Below are positions 731 through 8,342 of a stretch of DNA of 8,342 nucleotides, piece by piece. Made by a program: the position numbers and the translations under genes. Under the pieces are notes generated by a model. That model saw only the letters and a list, made by a program, of their open reading frames with translations, was not told where the DNA came from and searched no databases. Source of the DNA: Betaproteobacteria bacterium TMED156 (GTDB lineage Bacteria; Pseudomonadota; Gammaproteobacteria; Burkholderiales; Burkholderiaceae_A); the NCBI GenBank assembly GCA_002171155.1, contig NHHF01000138.1:1-8342 (forward strand), in the 5' to 3' direction. Each line of letters starts with the position of its first letter. The stretch's first letter is position 1.

Positions 731-1205
731 AGATTCTTTTTGGATCCTAGAAAGCAATGAGCAGAAAATAGGGACCATGAGACATGCAAATAGCACATGG
801 CAGTTATTACTAGATAAAGATAGAAAAGATTTCACCTCATATGAGAATGTAGTTGAATTTTTAGGAGAAGATCCTTTTAAGGTTGAAGAAAAGAGATTAT
901 TAGATCAACCTGTACAAGGTAACTTTGATGTTGAAGGATATCCTACTCCGGTACAACCTTATAATGTAGAACATTACAAATCATTGCCTACATACACCAA
1001 AACAATTAAATCTGGTGTAAAATACAGTGCAGGATATTATGGTATTGAATTTGCTAAAGGTTGGGTGCCGTCATTTAATCCTAAATTAAACACTTTGCTC
1101 GAAGGTGCAGTCTCGTATGTTGGTCCATTTTATTCAGAAATGGAAATGAATATTAACATAAATAATAAAAAGCGAGAACGAAAGCACACACATGGCACAG
1201 TATGA
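690..1205 (+). CDS. Conserved marine T4-like phage protein, unknown function
   Basis: About 171 residues from the first ATG, with no known domain that I can name. The N-terminal part (SFWILESNEQKIGTM, residues 16-30) looks like a small beta-hairpin module of the kind 'display value, do not change'. The central and C-terminal part carries YPTPVQPYN (84-92), LPTYTK (99-104), SAGYYGIEFAKGW (113-125), FNPKLNTLL (129-137) and YVGPF (143-147), a pattern I recall from conserved hypothetical proteins of T4-like cyanophages. It ends in a basic tail (KKRERKH, 160-166). The start is uncertain: ATG 690 lies 41 bp inside the exonuclease gene and has no Shine-Dalgarno; GTG 705 or an ATA/ATT at 723-728 directly before KDSFWIL could be used instead. 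The stop overlaps the next start by 14 bp, suggesting translational coupling. Confidence 0.8.
   Translation: MQVIHVLKAKQIIKDSFWILESNEQKIGTMRHANSTWQLLLDKDRKDFTSYENVVEFLGEDPFKVEEKRLLDQPVQGNFDVEGYPTPVQPYNVEHYKSLPTYTKTIKSGVKYSAGYYGIEFAKGWVPSFNPKLNTLLEGAVSYVGPFYSEMEMNININNKKRERKHTHGTV
1157..1164 (+). promoter_or_regulatory. Weak candidate T4-type late promoter (CATAAATA)
   Basis: The octamer CATAAATA is identical to the better-placed one at 2751 and one base from the T4 late consensus TATAAATA. It sits 27 bp before the ATG at 1192, a normal spacing for a late transcript with a short leader. However it lies inside Asn/Ile-rich codons of the preceding gene, and an AT-rich 8-mer like this is expected about once by chance in such a window, so support is weak. 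Confidence 0.25.
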
Positions 1206-2750: not shown

Positions 2751-2758
2751 CATAAATA
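2751..2758 (+). promoter_or_regulatory. Candidate T4-type late promoter (CATAAATA)
   Basis: CATAAATA begins immediately after the glutaredoxin stop, in one of the few intergenic gaps (2751-2766), and matches the T4 late promoter TATAAATA at 7 of 8 bases. In T4 such a box is centred near -10, so the transcript would start about 2764-2766, almost on the ATG at 2767, giving a nearly leaderless mRNA. There is no Shine-Dalgarno in the gap. Confidence 0.5.
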
Positions 2759-2766
2759 CAATTGTT

Positions 2767-3252
2767 ATGGATACACAAGAGATATTAGATAATCATTACG
2801 CAGTTCACAAGAACACTAGCCTACTTGATATATTGCTAGAGTTTGAAAAATCTATGGACGAAATGGGAATTTACACCTATAAAAACTGGATGGAAGGTGA
2901 AATTGTAGACGGACCTAAAATTGGTAGATATTGGGTAGATATTACAATAATGTATCCAAGAGAAATGATGCCAGATCCAGCTGGTGGTCAACGTTTACTT
3001 GGTTATGACTGCAAAGTGTATTACAAAAAAGATTACTATTTGGCTCCACGTAGAGTAAAAACACCAGGTGATTTTAAACCTGGAACAAAAAAACCACAAG
3101 TGGATGAAGTACCAGTTTGGTTGGTAACTATTAAAATGCCAAAAAGATTATTAGACAACTTTGATTTAGAAACTGATGCTGAAGTTGAAGCACAAGACAA
3201 AGCAAAAGACGAGGGGATTACAGATGAAACTACAATCACTAGTGACGAGTAA
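2767..3252 (+). CDS. Conserved T4-like phage protein, possibly virion-associated
   Basis: 161 residues, no domain recognised. The core has YKNWMEGEIVDGPKIGRYWV (38-57), the MYPREMMPDPAGGQRLL region (62-78) and VWLVTIKMPKRLLDNFD (117-133); the rest is an acidic C-terminal tail rich in Glu and Asp (134-161). I recall similar sequences in T4-like cyanophages annotated as hypothetical or structural proteins, always next to a homologue of the following gene, but cannot assign a role. A candidate late promoter directly upstream would fit a virion or assembly protein. The last 29 bp overlap the next gene, and the acidic tail is encoded over that gene's ribosome binding site. Confidence 0.8.
   Translation: MDTQEILDNHYAVHKNTSLLDILLEFEKSMDEMGIYTYKNWMEGEIVDGPKIGRYWVDITIMYPREMMPDPAGGQRLLGYDCKVYYKKDYYLAPRRVKTPGDFKPGTKKPQVDEVPVWLVTIKMPKRLLDNFDLETDAEVEAQDKAKDEGITDETTITSDE
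3211..3216 (+). promoter_or_regulatory. Ribosome binding site fixing the start at 3224
   Basis: GAGGGG lies 7 bp before ATG 3224, inside the end of the upstream coding sequence. It favours ATG 3224 over the in-frame upstream TTG 3176, which would add 16 basic residues unlike the rest of the protein. Confidence 0.75.
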
Positions 3253-3649
3253 GCGCCTTGAAGAAGGTTTAAGATCAGGTGATCTACAACACCTTATTTT
3301 AAACAAAGTTAGCATTGATCAGTTTGAGCCAAAAACAGGTGATGCAAAAGAAGTTTTAGTAATGGGCTTGTATTCAAAAGATGAAGAACCAGCTCAAGAT
3401 TTAGCAAGATTTATAGAACGTGGATATGTTGGAATAAAAGATACAGAAGTATCACCGGGTCCAGATGAAGATGGAAATTACATGGTATTCGTAGAAATAA
3501 AAAAAGATCAAGAAACAATGAAACGTGTAGTAGAAATACTTCATGATATTAAAAGTGTAACAACAGTTACTGAATGGCAATTAAATTTTCATGGTGGTAG
3601 AACCCACATGTTATCTGAACAAATGATTGAAAAAACAATTAGAGGTTAA
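3224..3649 (+). CDS. Conserved T4-like phage protein, possibly virion-associated
   Basis: 141 residues with no recognised domain. It starts [20 protein letters not shown], followed by [20 protein letters not shown] (21-40). A motif of [14 protein letters not shown] (55-68) and a [17 protein letters not shown] strand (76-92) lead into a second alpha/beta half, [15 protein letters not shown] (118-132). The pattern of two related alpha/beta halves with EPA.DL..FIE.GY and a D.EV.PG loop is one I recall from marine T4-like phage genomes, where the gene sits next to the preceding one. The function is unknown; the shared late-type promoter suggests a structural or assembly role. The stop overlaps the IF-1 start by one base (TAATG), a classic coupling junction. 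Confidence 0.8.
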
Positions 3650-3867
3650 TGTCAAAGGATAACGTAATTACAATGAATGGTACAGTGACTTCGGTTTTAC
3701 CGGCAGGAACATTTAAAATAAAGTTAGAAAATGGACATCAAGTTTTAGGACATTTAAGTGGTAAGATGAGAAAAAATCATATTAGAATATTAGAGAATGA
3801 TAAAGTTGATGTAGAAATTAGTCCATATGATCTATCAAAAGGAAGGGTAGTATACAGGTACAAGTAA
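3649..3867 (+). CDS. infA: Translation initiation factor IF-1
   Basis: 72 residues, exactly the size of bacterial IF-1, a single S1-like OB-fold that binds the 30S A site and works with IF-2 and IF-3 in start-site selection. The hallmarks are plain: NGTV (10-13), [20 protein letters not shown] (26-45), IRILENDKV (45-53) and [15 protein letters not shown] (58-72). Compared from memory, long stretches match E. coli IF-1 ([24 protein letters not shown]), while the YRYK ending is closer to alphaproteobacterial versions. No residue is missing, so it should be functional. It is embedded between phage genes: the start overlaps the upstream stop (TAATG), the downstream gene begins one base after its stop, and codon use is equally AT-rich, so this is a resident phage gene rather than a contaminating host segment. 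No own Shine-Dalgarno is obvious, so translation is probably coupled. Confidence 0.96.
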
Positions 3868-3868
3868 T

Positions 3869-4111
3869 ATGTGGTTTTGGATTATAAAAGCAATGGCTGG
3901 AGCAATTATTGGAAATGCAACAGCAACATGGTTTCGAGATACCAAGCTAGGTGTATGGTTCTACAATAAGGTAGATTCACTATACAACTGGGCGGCAAAA
4001 AGGTATAACGTAAAACTTCTCACTGATGAGGAGAAAAGAATGGCAAAATTTCCAGCTTTAAAAGAAAAGTTGGCTGACCTTGAGAGTAGGATTTCAAAGT
4101 TAGAAAAATAA
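3869..4111 (+). CDS. Small membrane-associated protein with C-terminal coiled coil
   Basis: 80 residues. The N-terminus (MWFWIIKAMAGAIIGNATAT, 1-20) is hydrophobic with small-residue spacing (A/G xxx G), giving one likely membrane-inserting helix. An aromatic segment (VWFYNKVDSLYNW, 29-41) may lie at the membrane surface. The C-terminus (52-80, EEKRMAKFPALKEKLADLESRISKLEK) has heptad-like Leu/Ile spacing, a short coiled coil. I recall similar proteins in marine T4-like phages without a function. With the next gene it could form part of a holin-like or other membrane component of the lysis region, but this is inferred from position only. The ATG lies one base after the IF-1 stop and has only a poor AGG ten bases upstream. 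Confidence 0.75.
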   Translation: MWFWIIKAMAGAIIGNATATWFRDTKLGVWFYNKVDSLYNWAAKRYNVKLLTDEEKRMAKFPALKEKLADLESRISKLEK

Positions 4112-5551: not shown

Positions 5552-6025
5552 ATGTTTGGTTATATTAAAGTTATTTTTACAGTAGTGATCATCTCAGCAA
5601 TAGCAGGTGCTGGTATGTATGTAATGAAATTACGTTCTGACAATGCTGTATTAAAAGCAAATCAAATAGAACTAGAACGTTCGATTGAATCACAACAAGA
5701 ATTATTAGAACAACAAAAAGCAGACTTTGAAGAAATACTAGAATCAAACAAACAATTAAATGTTTTAATCAACAGTTTGAAAAAAGATCTAGAAGATCTA
5801 GACAAAAGATTTAACAAAGGTGGCAGGGACGTTGGTAAAATTGGTGTTGAAAAGCCAAAACTGTTAGAAAAAATAATAAACAATGGAGCCAACAATGCGG
5901 CTAGATGTATTGAATTAGCATCAGGGGCCCCACACACAGAAGAGGAGTTGAAGGCAACTAAGAAATCGGAAATCAATCCAGAATGTCCGGCATTAGCAAA
6001 CCCTTCATATGTACCATATGAATAA
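5552..6025 (+). CDS. Inner-membrane spanin-like protein (Rz-like)
   Basis: 157 residues. A single N-terminal membrane helix (about 4-24, IKVIFTVVIISAIAGAGMYV) is followed by a long coiled coil (about 27-88) of Leu/Ile heptads with many Gln and Glu, then a globular tail. The tail (GGRDVGKIGVEKPKLLEKII, 90-109) matches a pattern I remember in phage proteins of the type 'RD.G.L...KP.L....IN.GT', commonly in lysis cassettes. It holds two Cys (119 and 145), which could form a disulfide in the periplasm. The topology (N-in membrane anchor, periplasmic coiled coil) is that of an i-spanin, which with an outer-membrane partner fuses the membranes at lysis. AAGGA (5541-5545) lies 6 bp before ATG 5552. 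The stop is overlapped by the next gene (17 bp), the typical arrangement of Rz/Rz1-type pairs. Confidence 0.75.
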   Translation: MFGYIKVIFTVVIISAIAGAGMYVMKLRSDNAVLKANQIELERSIESQQELLEQQKADFEEILESNKQLNVLINSLKKDLEDLDKRFNKGGRDVGKIGVEKPKLLEKIINNGANNAARCIELASGAPHTEEELKATKKSEINPECPALANPSYVPYE

Positions 6026-6485
6026 ATTTTTTAAATGGCATAACAGCCAAATAGATTGGTGGAAGAATAAATTAGGAGTTAGCTGGTATGCGGTATCTTG
6101 GATATCATTTCTTAAAGGTGCAATACTAGTTCTTATAGTTGTTGCATTGACTGGCTGTACGATTGGTGAAAAAAGAATAAAAGTATTTTCAGTTGAAGAA
6201 CCAAGACAGAATTTAGATCATCCTATGCCTACTCCATTAGAACTGGAAGAGATTAGATGGATAATTATCAATTCAGAAAATGCAGATGAAGTATTCAAAA
6301 AGTTAGAAGAACAAGGCATTGACCCAGTGTTGTTTGGATTGACTGACAGAGACTTTGAAATACTGGCCAAAAACTTTGCACAGATTAGAGCAAAGCTTCA
6401 AGAAACAAATACACTGTTGGAAGAATATAAAAAATATTACGAAGAATATAATCAAGAAGACGAAGTCAACAATAAACCTAAATAA
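6009..6485 (+). CDS. Outer-membrane spanin-like lipoprotein or membrane protein
   Basis: 158 residues from ATG 6009 (ATG 6018 would give 155). An unusually long N-terminus of about 35 residues with many Trp and Lys (KWHNSQIDWWKNK) precedes a hydrophobic helix (about 32-49) ending L-T-G-C50, a textbook lipobox. The exterior part has a Pro-rich linker (EPRQNLDHPMPTPLELEEI, about 63-81), then IRWIIINSENADEVFKKLEEQ, FGLTDRDFEILAKNFAQIRA (108-128) and a C-terminal helical tail with EEYKKYYEEY. I recall comparable proteins in marine T4-like phages annotated as hypothetical with a similar LT..D.E.L..N...IR segment. Position and overlap with the i-spanin-like gene suggest the o-spanin partner, but the long pre-lipobox extension is atypical, so it may simply be a membrane protein. 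Confidence 0.65.
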   Translation: MYHMNKFFKWHNSQIDWWKNKLGVSWYAVSWISFLKGAILVLIVVALTGCTIGEKRIKVFSVEEPRQNLDHPMPTPLELEEIRWIIINSENADEVFKKLEEQGIDPVLFGLTDRDFEILAKNFAQIRAKLQETNTLLEEYKKYYEEYNQEDEVNNKPK

Positions 6486-6488
6486 TAC

Positions 6489-6516
6489 TTGACTTTTAAT
6501 TAATCTGTTATATACT
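6489..6516 (+). promoter_or_regulatory. Sigma70-type promoter of the dnaJ-def-clpA operon
   Basis: TTGACT (6489-6494, 5/6 to TTGACA) and TATACT (6511-6516, 5/6 to TATAAT) are separated by 16 bp, close to the optimum; TGTTATA just before adds an extended -10-like feature. It lies in the 37-bp gap between the spanin-like gene and dnaJ, the second-largest gap in the window. A start 6-8 bp downstream falls at about 6522-6524, on the ATG itself, so the mRNA would have almost no leader and no Shine-Dalgarno. Early host-polymerase transcription is likely if this is used. Confidence 0.75.
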
Positions 6517-6522
6517 TAAACA

Positions 6523-7401
6523 ATGAGTCAGGATCATTATAAAACACTTGGAGTATCGGAACAATCATCGCAGGATGAGATAAAACGAGCATATAAAAAG
6601 CTCGCCAAACAGTATCATCCTGACCTTAATGGTGGTGATGACACACAGTTTAAAAAAATAAATGAAGCCAATAATATTTTAAGTGATCAGCAAAGAAGAC
6701 AACAATATGATATGGAAAGACGCTATGGTGCACAAGGTGGTCAAGGACCTTTTGGATTTGCAGGCGGATCGTTTGATGATATTATTATTGATAGTGATAT
6801 ACCTGGCTTTGGAAATATGTTTGAGCAATTCTTTGGCGATAACACATCAAGAAGAACATTTAGACAAAGAAAAGCAAAACCATTACGTAATCAAGATATA
6901 AGGATTAACTTAACTGTTTCTTTGGAAGATGTTTTTTATGGTGTGTCAAAAGAAGTAGTTATTAAAACACCAACAGGCACAAATCAAAATGTAAAAATAG
7001 ATATTCCAAAGGCATGTGATACAGGAACACAAATAAGATTTTCAGGTTTAGGATCAACGTTGCATGAAGACTTAAGACCAGGAGACTTATATGTGGTATT
7101 ATCTGTCGCGGCTCATAAAAAGTTTACTCAAAAAGGAAAAGACTTGTACACTAACATAGATATAGATATTTTTGATGCGTTATTAGGAACAAAAGTTGAT
7201 ATTGAACATTTTGATAATAATATAACTATAACTGTTCCACCTCTAACTCAACCGGAAGATGTAATTAGAGTAAAAGGAAAAGGTATGCAATTAAACAATG
7301 GTACATCAGGAAATTTGTATATTAAATTAAATTATCAAATACCAAAAAAATTAACAGATGAACAAAAACAACTTTTAGAAAAAATAAGGAAAAACATATA
7401 A
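6523..7401 (+). CDS. dnaJ: J-domain co-chaperone without zinc fingers (CbpA/DnaJ class II-like)
   Basis: 292-residue J-domain protein (type II layout) that would stimulate the ATPase of an Hsp70 (DnaK) and present substrates. The J domain is residues 1-65 with the essential H32-P-D34 motif, KKLAKQYHPDLN. A short Gly/Phe-rich linker follows (71-83), then FGNMFEQFFG (96-105), a stretch recalling DnaJ's FGDIFEDFFG. The four CXXCXGXG zinc-finger repeats of DnaJ are absent. Two C-terminal substrate-binding domains run from about 123 (NQDIRINLTVSLEDVFYG, RPGDLYVVLSV 185-195, DIFDALLGTKVDI 215-227, ITVPPLTQPEDVIRVKGKGM 236-255) to a terminal helix (DEQKQLLEKIRKN) where dimerisation occurs. No DnaK is in the window, so it probably recruits the host's. 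The stop overlaps the PDF start (TAATG). ATG 6523 is the only sensible start; it lies at the transcription start of the upstream promoter. Confidence 0.93.
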   Translation: MSQDHYKTLGVSEQSSQDEIKRAYKKLAKQYHPDLNGGDDTQFKKINEANNILSDQQRRQQYDMERRYGAQGGQGPFGFAGGSFDDIIIDSDIPGFGNMFEQFFGDNTSRRTFRQRKAKPLRNQDIRINLTVSLEDVFYGVSKEVVIKTPTGTNQNVKIDIPKACDTGTQIRFSGLGSTLHEDLRPGDLYVVLSVAAHKKFTQKGKDLYTNIDIDIFDALLGTKVDIEHFDNNITITVPPLTQPEDVIRVKGKGMQLNNGTSGNLYIKLNYQIPKKLTDEQKQLLEKIRKNI

Positions 7402-7889
7402 TGGAATTAGTGTACGCACCTGCAGATATTTTAAAGAAACCTACAATAAGTGTTGACGACGACATGGATAATGTAGTAAAATTAGCAGAACAAATGCACA
7501 AAATTATGTCACAAAATAACGGTATTGGTCTTGCCGCTCCACAAGTAGGTTTAGATAAAAGTTTCTTTATAATGGGAGATAAAACACGTTATAAGTTAGT
7601 TGTTAACCCTAAAGTAGTAGAAACAGGTAGTGAAAAAGGTTTAATTACAGAAGGTTGTTTAAGTTTTCCCGGCATATTTTTAAAAGTTCTACGTCCACTT
7701 AATACAGTTGTAGAGTATGTAAATACTAATGGAGAGAAAGTTAATGAAAGACTCGAAGGAATGATGAGTAGAGTTTTTCAGCATGAAACTGATCATCTAA
7801 ATGGAATAACATTTGATACATTAGTTTCTAAACTTAAACTTGATATGGCAATGAAAAAATTAAATAAAAGGTTAAAACGCAATGGCTGA
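7401..7889 (+). CDS. def: Peptide deformylase
   Basis: 162-residue metalloenzyme that removes the formyl group from the N-terminal Met of nascent proteins in the cytoplasm. All three family motifs are intact: G41-I-G-L-A-A-P-Q48, E84-G-C86-L-S (metal ligand Cys86) and Q127-H128-E129-T-D-H132 (metal ligands His128 and His132, catalytic Glu129), so it should be active. A short basic C-terminal helix (KLKLDMAMKKLNKRLKRNG region, 144-162) remains, between the long helix of bacterial type 1 PDFs and the truncated versions seen in some cyanophages. AAGGAA (about 7386-7391) precedes ATG 7401, and the start overlaps the dnaJ stop by one base. Phage-encoded PDFs are known from marine phages and are thought to help mature photosystem or other short-lived proteins; no photosystem gene is in this window. 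Confidence 0.96.
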   Translation: MELVYAPADILKKPTISVDDDMDNVVKLAEQMHKIMSQNNGIGLAAPQVGLDKSFFIMGDKTRYKLVVNPKVVETGSEKGLITEGCLSFPGIFLKVLRPLNTVVEYVNTNGEKVNERLEGMMSRVFQHETDHLNGITFDTLVSKLKLDMAMKKLNKRLKRNG

Positions 7890-8342
7890 AGAATATGATC
7901 CAATAGAATCCGTACTAGATAGAGCAATGGAATTTGCTTCTGAGAGAAACCACGAGTATGTGGTTCTTGAACATCTTCTATTGGCATTAGCAAACGAAAA
8001 AGAAATACAATCATTGATTTCAGAAGTTAAAGGTGACGTTGATCAAATAATGGTTGACTGTATGCAGTATCTTGATAATAAGTTGAAAGATATTGTAGTT
8101 GAATCAACAGACGCTCCACGCAAAACTTCAGCACTAGAAAGAGTATTTAATAGGGCAGTCACACAGGTTATATTTTCTGGTAGAAAAAAATTAGCAATCA
8201 AAGATATTTTTGTAAGTTTATTAAGTGAAAAAAATAGTTATGCCTTGTACTTTTTAAAGAAAAATAATATTACAAGACAAGCAGTTATTGAGCAACTTAC
8301 AAAAGAACGTTATGGTGAAGATGTACATCTACAAGAAAGACA
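7882..8342 (+). CDS. clpA: ClpA-type AAA+ unfoldase, N-terminal domain (cut by window edge)
   Basis: Open from ATG 7882 to the window end, 153 codons, no stop. The protein has the Clp N-domain double repeat: MAEEYDPIESVLDRAMEFAS, then HEYVVLEHLLLAL (24-36) and a second repeat with SALERVFNRAV (83-93), FSGRKKLAIKDIFVSLLSEKNS (about 97-118), YALYFLKKNNITRQAV (119-134). Repeat by repeat this resembles the start of E. coli ClpA (RHEFMTVEHLLLAL, FQRVLQRAV, SGRNEVTGANVLVAIFSEQES, AAYLLRK). The AAA+ modules lie outside the window, so full length and function as a ClpP partner are not shown. In bacteria the ClpA N-domain binds the adaptor ClpS, which delivers N-degron substrates. The ATG overlaps the PDF stop by 8 bp, with AAAGG 11-12 bp upstream. 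Confidence 0.88.
   Translation, partial: MAEEYDPIESVLDRAMEFASERNHEYVVLEHLLLALANEKEIQSLISEVKGDVDQIMVDCMQYLDNKLKDIVVESTDAPRKTSALERVFNRAVTQVIFSGRKKLAIKDIFVSLLSEKNSYALYFLKKNNITRQAVIEQLTKERYGEDVHLQER

Follow-up and report, generated by a model that had tools for sequence, protein, structure and literature searches.

Genes for translation initiation factors (IFs) have been described in several groups of phages. IF1 and IF3 occur in huge phages, for which a redirection of host translation was proposed (Al-Shayeb 2020, PMC7162821), a "translation initiation factor 1A" is a core gene of the Jug phages (PMC12363816), and IF-3 is known in CBB, GAP32, 121Q, PBECO4, and RaK2 (PMC5259590). Here, we analyze an infA-like gene encoding IF-1 in the 8,342-nucleotide contig NHHF01000138.1 (assembly GCA_002171155.1, filed under Betaproteobacteria bacterium TMED156), the whole of which is referred to below as the window. 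The original prediction regarded an infA in a T4-like marine phage as unusual, a view that had to be given up in the face of these reports and of the 90 viral contigs in which we found a relative. Phage-encoded IF-1 is already known, and what is new here is the block anatomy, i.e., the position of IF-1 in a conserved block of genes for virion structural proteins (vsp1 and vsp2), spanins, DnaJ, and ClpA. In the literature searched, supplements and most subscription journals aside, we saw neither a conserved late block of this kind containing IF-1 nor the residue shifts shared by phage IF-1s described.

The window protein resembles cellular IF-1 (TIGR00008/PF01176) in length, predicted fold, and nearly all named 30S-contact residues, but it lies in a phage block, carries H44, E49, N50, and D54, and is only 56-67% identical to the best 80 of 586 bacterial IF-1 loci. 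It shares with the huge-phage IF1 the fact of being phage encoded. The passages of that report considered here, with which the comparison is by description, mention no late block of this kind and no phages of the present lineage. The Jug factor, also compared by description, is an IF-1-type core gene of a huge-phage clade, but of a gut lineage. The IF-1 of the Sinorhizobium phage Phosso (PV764938) is 62.5% identical to that of the window and has the block order vsp1-vsp2-..-IF1-..-DnaJ-PDF-ClpA, where PDF is peptide deformylase. Unlike in the window, it stands 7.3 kb after vsp2, behind a MutT-like gene, and no late motif lies within 80 bp before vsp1.

We favor, with some reservation, the reading that the window encodes a functional IF-1 of a jumbo-phage lineage with a gp23-type capsid, which would be transcribed late with vsp1 and vsp2 and would sustain initiation on host 30S subunits. 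The data themselves show the identity of the protein, its predicted fold, the gene order, the promoter motif, purifying selection, and the IF-3, bS21, and PDF of relatives.

IF-1 in a conserved block of jumbo phages

The gene scores 110.3 bits against TIGR00008, the infA equivalog (cut-off 61.15), over profile positions 1-69 of 69, and 88 bits against PF01176 (cut-off 30.2). Residues 1-72 also align to phrog_30201, listed by PHROGs as of unknown function. The predicted structure is the IF-1 oligonucleotide/oligosaccharide-binding (OB) fold, with strands beta1-3, a short helix, and strands beta4-5. Four further contigs (L008-L011) encode an IF-1 71-75% identical to that of the window in a matching arrangement. 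The ratio of nonsynonymous to synonymous substitutions (dN/dS) was 0.07-0.25 in all 10 pairs of five sequences, with dS near saturation in some pairs. A chance match is excluded because of the profile scores, the identical arrangement in the four other contigs, and the low dN/dS. The complete 72-residue IF-1 inside a phage gene cluster, as originally proposed, was thus borne out. Both one-base junctions claimed for it are real: the vsp2 stop (TAA, 3647-3649) shares one base with the IF-1 start (TAATG), and downstream there is a gap of a single base between the IF-1 stop (3865-3867) and the ATG at 3869. Phage genes had been expected on both sides. The neighbors do look like phage genes, with the two virion structural proteins upstream and spanin-like genes farther downstream; the open reading frame (ORF) directly downstream has no family match above a cut-off.

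An IF-1-fold protein could also have another role, e.g., in anti-termination or as an RNA chaperone. OB folds are broad binders of nucleic acid, and the gene has virion and lysis genes, not translation genes, around it. We nevertheless consider such a role quite improbable, given the equivalog-level match, the conserved 30S contacts, and the presence of IF-3, bS21, and PDF in relatives and of PDF in the window itself.

The block runs vsp1-vsp2-[IF1]-spanins-DnaJ-[PDF]-ClpA, and IF-1 looks like a long-kept member of it. A profile scan of IMG/VR gave the 90 contigs with an IF-1 relative, of which 80 were kept, at least one of them (L019) being host. A tblastn search of the phage collection gave 36 records, many unannotated and some doubtful; Phosso and 11 of the 36 records were used for comparing IF-1s. 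After duplicates and host sequence were dropped, this set chosen by IF-1 comprised 63 distinct contexts. vsp2 was found on the strand of IF-1 in 30 of them, and IF-1 abuts or overlaps vsp2 (-22 to +8 bases) in 19 of these 30 block loci, which also contain DnaJ (25 loci), ClpA (26), i-spanin (20), and PDF (11). Since the first set had been chosen by IF-1, a second one was chosen by vsp2 (168 stretches with a relative, of which 80 were kept, 70 distinct by vsp2). Among its 57 loci with at least 9 kb downstream, 40 contain IF-1, within 60 bases of vsp2 in 28 and farther away in 12. A linkage between IF-1 and PDF is not clear, PDF occurring with IF-1 in 5 of the 57 loci and without it in 3. In PA5oct the order is vsp1-vsp2-DnaJ-ClpA, and no gene is annotated between the second and third of these.

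Two records were rejected as sources of phage IF-1. "Acinetobacter phage MD-2021a" (L223) is host chromosome around infA, and L019 (IMG/VR 2645727640_000047), whose IF-1 equals the E. coli chain over 71 residues and has a host flank, was dropped from the phage counts. Other short unannotated "Listeria/Staphylococcus phage" records may be host DNA too.

Leaving fragments aside, the annotated phages listed as matching vsp1 and vsp2 (40 of 57 records each) have jumbo genomes of 285-490 kb and include Phosso (469 kb), Atu_ph07 (490 kb), PA5oct (287 kb), RaK2, 121Q, and GAP32. The nearest large viral contig is IMG/VR 3300020477_000990 (328,149 bp; vsp2 67% identical), where the flanks of IF-1 match those of the window. 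It has one gp23-type capsid gene, one IF-1, an IF-3, and bS21, the last two 0.2 kb apart. We searched 20 phage records whole, several of them fragments; 19 had been chosen for holding IF-1, the other being Atu_ph07. Each of the 19 has exactly one IF-1; gp23 was found in 16 of the 20, PDF in 12, and the vsp2 family in 19. Classical T4-like phage genomes are about 170 kb long. These comparisons point away from the classical T4-like group and toward jumbo phages with a gp23-type capsid as the lineage of the window. The T4-like assignment of the original prediction is therefore right solely at the level of the gp23 capsid superfamily, seen in relatives, because the kin by vsp1 and vsp2 are jumbo phages and the 328-kb relative has gp23. 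The marine setting is taken from the Tara labels of closely matching protein clusters. The phage collection gave no megablast match to the window.

Promoter motifs and expected timing

The late promoter of T4 and KVP40 is TATAAATA and that of cyanophage S-PM2 is NATAAATA (PMC2984593); a comparable late motif, along with a gp55-like sigma factor, is described for the related jumbo phage CBB (PMC5259590). The window carries CATAAATA just before vsp1, and the four contigs L008-L011 have NATAAATA at the equivalent position. ATAAATA, the last seven letters of CATAAATA, is not enriched in the window (2 copies on the plus strand and none on the minus strand; shuffles have a mean of 3.4, and 179 of 200 reach 2), so only its position is informative. 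The 80 bp ahead of vsp1 contain it in 19 of the 30 block loci, compared with a background of 1.3% of 80-bp stretches, and in 46 of 68 loci of the vsp2 set, for which the background is 1.8%; the two sets share contigs, and relatedness among loci is uncorrected. Within 80 bp upstream of the other genes, it was found for vsp2 in 1/30, IF1 in 1/29, i-spanin in 0/20, DnaJ in 0/25, PDF in 0/11, and ClpA in 3/26. The second copy of the window (1158-1164) is 27 bases before the ORF at 1192, with the genes for HtrA and glutaredoxin following, and in L008-L010 a copy lies at a similar distance from the vsp1 motif.

Because the T4-type late motif is positioned before vsp1, IF-1 is probably made late, together with virion proteins. 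We infer the timing of the factor, its binding to the host ribosome, and its benefit, as follows. A T4-type late promoter would drive a vsp1-vsp2-infA unit in which infA is the third gene, its translation probably being coupled to that of vsp2. The product would bind the A site of host 30S subunits, as cellular IF-1 does, and, with the IF-3 and bS21 of relatives, could keep initiation fast and correctly staged during the synthesis of virion proteins, a stage at which host infA mRNA is perhaps no longer renewed. The protein is most likely a working IF-1 that would sustain or tune initiation late in infection.

Several observations weigh against this reading. IF-1 is absent from 17 of the 57 vsp2 loci, within a locus read of at least 9 kb downstream, and the whole record of Atu_ph07 has no match to the IF-1 family (it has no PDF match either, and its listed block genes likewise lack both); therefore, the wider lineage can do without IF-1. 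Where IF-1 is present, 12 of the 40 loci have it 0.8-6.7 kb from vsp2, and a single shared late transcript is not evident there. The late motif is missing before vsp1 in 11 of 30 block loci, Phosso included, and in 22 of 68 loci of the vsp2 set. Among the 20 records searched whole, several of them fragments, IF-3 is present in only 9 and bS21 in 14, and the window, at 8.3 kb, shows no IF-3, bS21, or capsid genes of its own. At the same time, since Phosso has IF-1 and Atu_ph07 does not, the need of a phage for its own initiation factors becomes approachable by gene removal. A factor whose late-gene position is conserved in much of a jumbo-phage lineage, with one member that has a named host strain (Phosso, Sinorhizobium meliloti) and a relative without the gene (Atu_ph07), turns a curiosity into a testable system.

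The partner genes may follow another schedule. In four jumbo contigs (L313-L316), in which the IF-3 and bS21 genes adjoin, no late motif was found in the 1 kb upstream of IF-3, which suggests that IF-3 may be made at a different time from IF-1; three of the four have a late motif within the IF-3 coding region, at a distance of about 320 bases from bS21. The ORF upstream of IF-3 ends ClpX-like by eye in some of these contigs. AP-J-162 is described as having clpX beside IF-3, and IF-3 with S21 and L7/L12. A more ambitious proposal, which we regard as doubtful, is that a virus-specific IF-1 subfamily of jumbo phages, made in the late phase only, would use its changed decoding-site loop and acidic residue 54, with phage IF-3 and bS21, to rebuild the host 30S initiation complex so that it prefers late phage mRNAs. 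E. coli ribosomes with a phage bS21 built in were reported as inactive (PMC6375957). On our preferred reading, phage IF-1 and IF-3 are natural candidates in this connection.

A sigma-70-like promoter, TTGACT-16-TATACT, precedes DnaJ in the window, and its spacing to DnaJ recurs in L008-L011 and, by eye, in L236 and L237. Because this promoter ends six bases before the DnaJ ATG, the transcript of DnaJ, PDF, and ClpA may have almost no leader and may not belong to the late class. The original prediction had suggested that a phage IF-1 could favor weak Shine-Dalgarno (SD) or leaderless mRNAs. This found no general support, as SD-like matches of at least 4 nt precede 11 of the 16 starts in the window (no shuffle comparison) and DnaJ is the sole near-leaderless case noticed; these counts give no hint that SD sequences are scarce in the phage.

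Residue shifts and origin of the phage factor

In IF-1, R41 and R46 touch A1492/A1493, and K39 and R66 are also 30S contacts (PMC10913371). The window protein keeps K39, R41, R46, and R66; at R64, another basic residue contacting the 30S, it has K, which is also the residue in 38 of 50 rows from bacteria. It further has H44, R46, E49, N50, and D54. As groups, phage and bacterial proteins diverge near the decoding site and at residue 54. Residue 54 is acidic (D/E) in 46 of 62 distinct phage IF-1s versus none of 104 distinct bacterial ones, R46 is found in 18 of 62 versus 101 of 104, and residue 44 is N/H/E/T/K/S in 55 of 62 phage proteins versus Y/F/R in 101 of 104 bacterial ones, in a bacterial sample dominated by Pseudomonadota and selected in part for similarity. 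One of the two search patterns could favor D54; 40 of 61 viral sequences carry SGKMRKN and did not need the other pattern, and 25 of these are acidic at 54. Exceptions are the IF-1s of Lak phages (L224 and L225), with Y44 and K54, and of the Bacteroides phages DAC19 and SJC03 (L228 and L229), with Y44. The proteins of the latter two, annotated as hypothetical, are IF-1-like, 101 residues long, and have an N-terminal extension of about 30 residues.

Such changes in the loop, with an acidic residue 54, could alter start-site selection or subunit joining and so favor phage mRNAs or impair host ones. The contacts of R41 and R46 and the group-wide shifts at 44, 46, and 54 make a specialized IF-1 of this kind possible, but we think it rather unlikely, as the window retains R46, the Lak and Bacteroides phages do not follow the pattern, the bacterial sample has the bias stated above, and residue shifts alone are no proof of altered function, drift in a shared phage ancestor producing the same picture. 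A working factor acting late remains our preferred reading.

A different question is how the gene was acquired. IF-1 is a universal host gene, which makes recent capture or a chimeric assembly conceivable. In the phylum of a Lamprocystis metagenome-assembled genome, 117 of 120 genomes matched, at 43-65% identity. Protein clusters from metagenomes reach 92-93%. The gene is unlikely to have come recently from a host, because the best bacterial loci are more distant (56-67%) than the block phage contigs (71-75%) and these clusters. Near identity to one host clade was thus not observed, and gene order around IF-1 recurs on other contigs (L008-L011 and the 328-kb contig), which argues against chimeric host DNA.

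Trees were built from an alignment of 72 columns, leaving out duplicates, bacteria more than 92% alike, and L168-L197; for a second tree, 12 long or unstable rows were removed and 18 of 120 metagenomic proteins were added. In the first tree, the window and L008-L011 form a firm clade (support 99/94), which lies weakly among bacteria beside two Acidimicrobiia loci (82/75), while 53 other phage rows fall on one side of a 92/91 branch. In the second, the window clade, P0038, and the two Acidimicrobiia loci group together (100/94) and are set with bacteria (96/90), both with starred support. Approximately unbiased (AU) tests, run on the first tree only, did not reject a grouping of every block phage in a single clade (P = 0.36), the window with alpha-type rows, which were assigned by sequence (P = 0.58), or the window with gamma (P = 0.18). 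The placement of the window clade is not firm, because no alternative was rejected and the alignment has just 72 columns. Recent capture or chimerism, although both trees put the clade on the bacterial side, thus appears very improbable to us in view of the repeated flanks and the distance to bacteria. The trees favor the view that the window clade acquired its gene separately and earlier or had it replaced in place; vertical descent and in-place replacement are not separable with 72-column trees and AU tests. The two Acidimicrobiia contigs (L137 and L138; GC, 0.68 and 0.72) have an unusual IF-1.

Neighboring genes in the window

By profile matches, IF-1 is preceded by genes for a 5'-3' exonuclease-like protein, an HtrA-type protease, glutaredoxin, vsp1, and vsp2, and followed by small ORFs and genes for a lipase-like protein, an i-spanin/o-spanin pair, DnaJ, PDF, and the start of ClpA (Table 1).

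Table 1. Positions of IF-1, its neighbors, and promoter motifs in the window
Feature	Position	Strand	Evidence or remark
CATAAATA, T4/cyanophage-type late promoter motif	2751..2758	+	8 bases before vsp1 ATG
vsp1, virion structural protein	2767..3252	+	phrog_12928; first gene of the putative late unit
vsp2, virion structural protein	3224..3649	+	phrog_13138; stop overlaps IF-1 start by one base
infA-like gene, IF-1, 72 aa	3649..3867	+	ATG to TAA; TIGR00008, PF01176, predicted fold
Small ORF one base past IF-1	3869..4111	+	No family match above cut-off
Rz-like i-spanin	5552..6025	+	phrog_739
Rz-like o-spanin	6018..6485	+	phrog_812
Sigma-70-like promoter TTGACT-16-TATACT	6489..6516	+	Six bases before DnaJ ATG
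DnaJ-like protein	6523..7401	+	Profile match
PDF, acts on fMet of new chains	7401..7889	+	Profile match
ClpA-like N-terminal part, continues beyond window	7882..8342	+	Profile match

The PA5oct homolog of vsp1 is annotated with a note of electrospray ionization tandem mass spectrometry (ESI-MS/MS). vsp2 has 141 residues in the window versus about 240-266 in Phosso, Atu_ph07, and their kin (L006, L007, L013, L017, and L021), the longer form having a C-terminal extension of about 100 residues. Glutaredoxin and vsp1 are 16 bases apart in the window versus about 1 kb in L004 (5443-6430).
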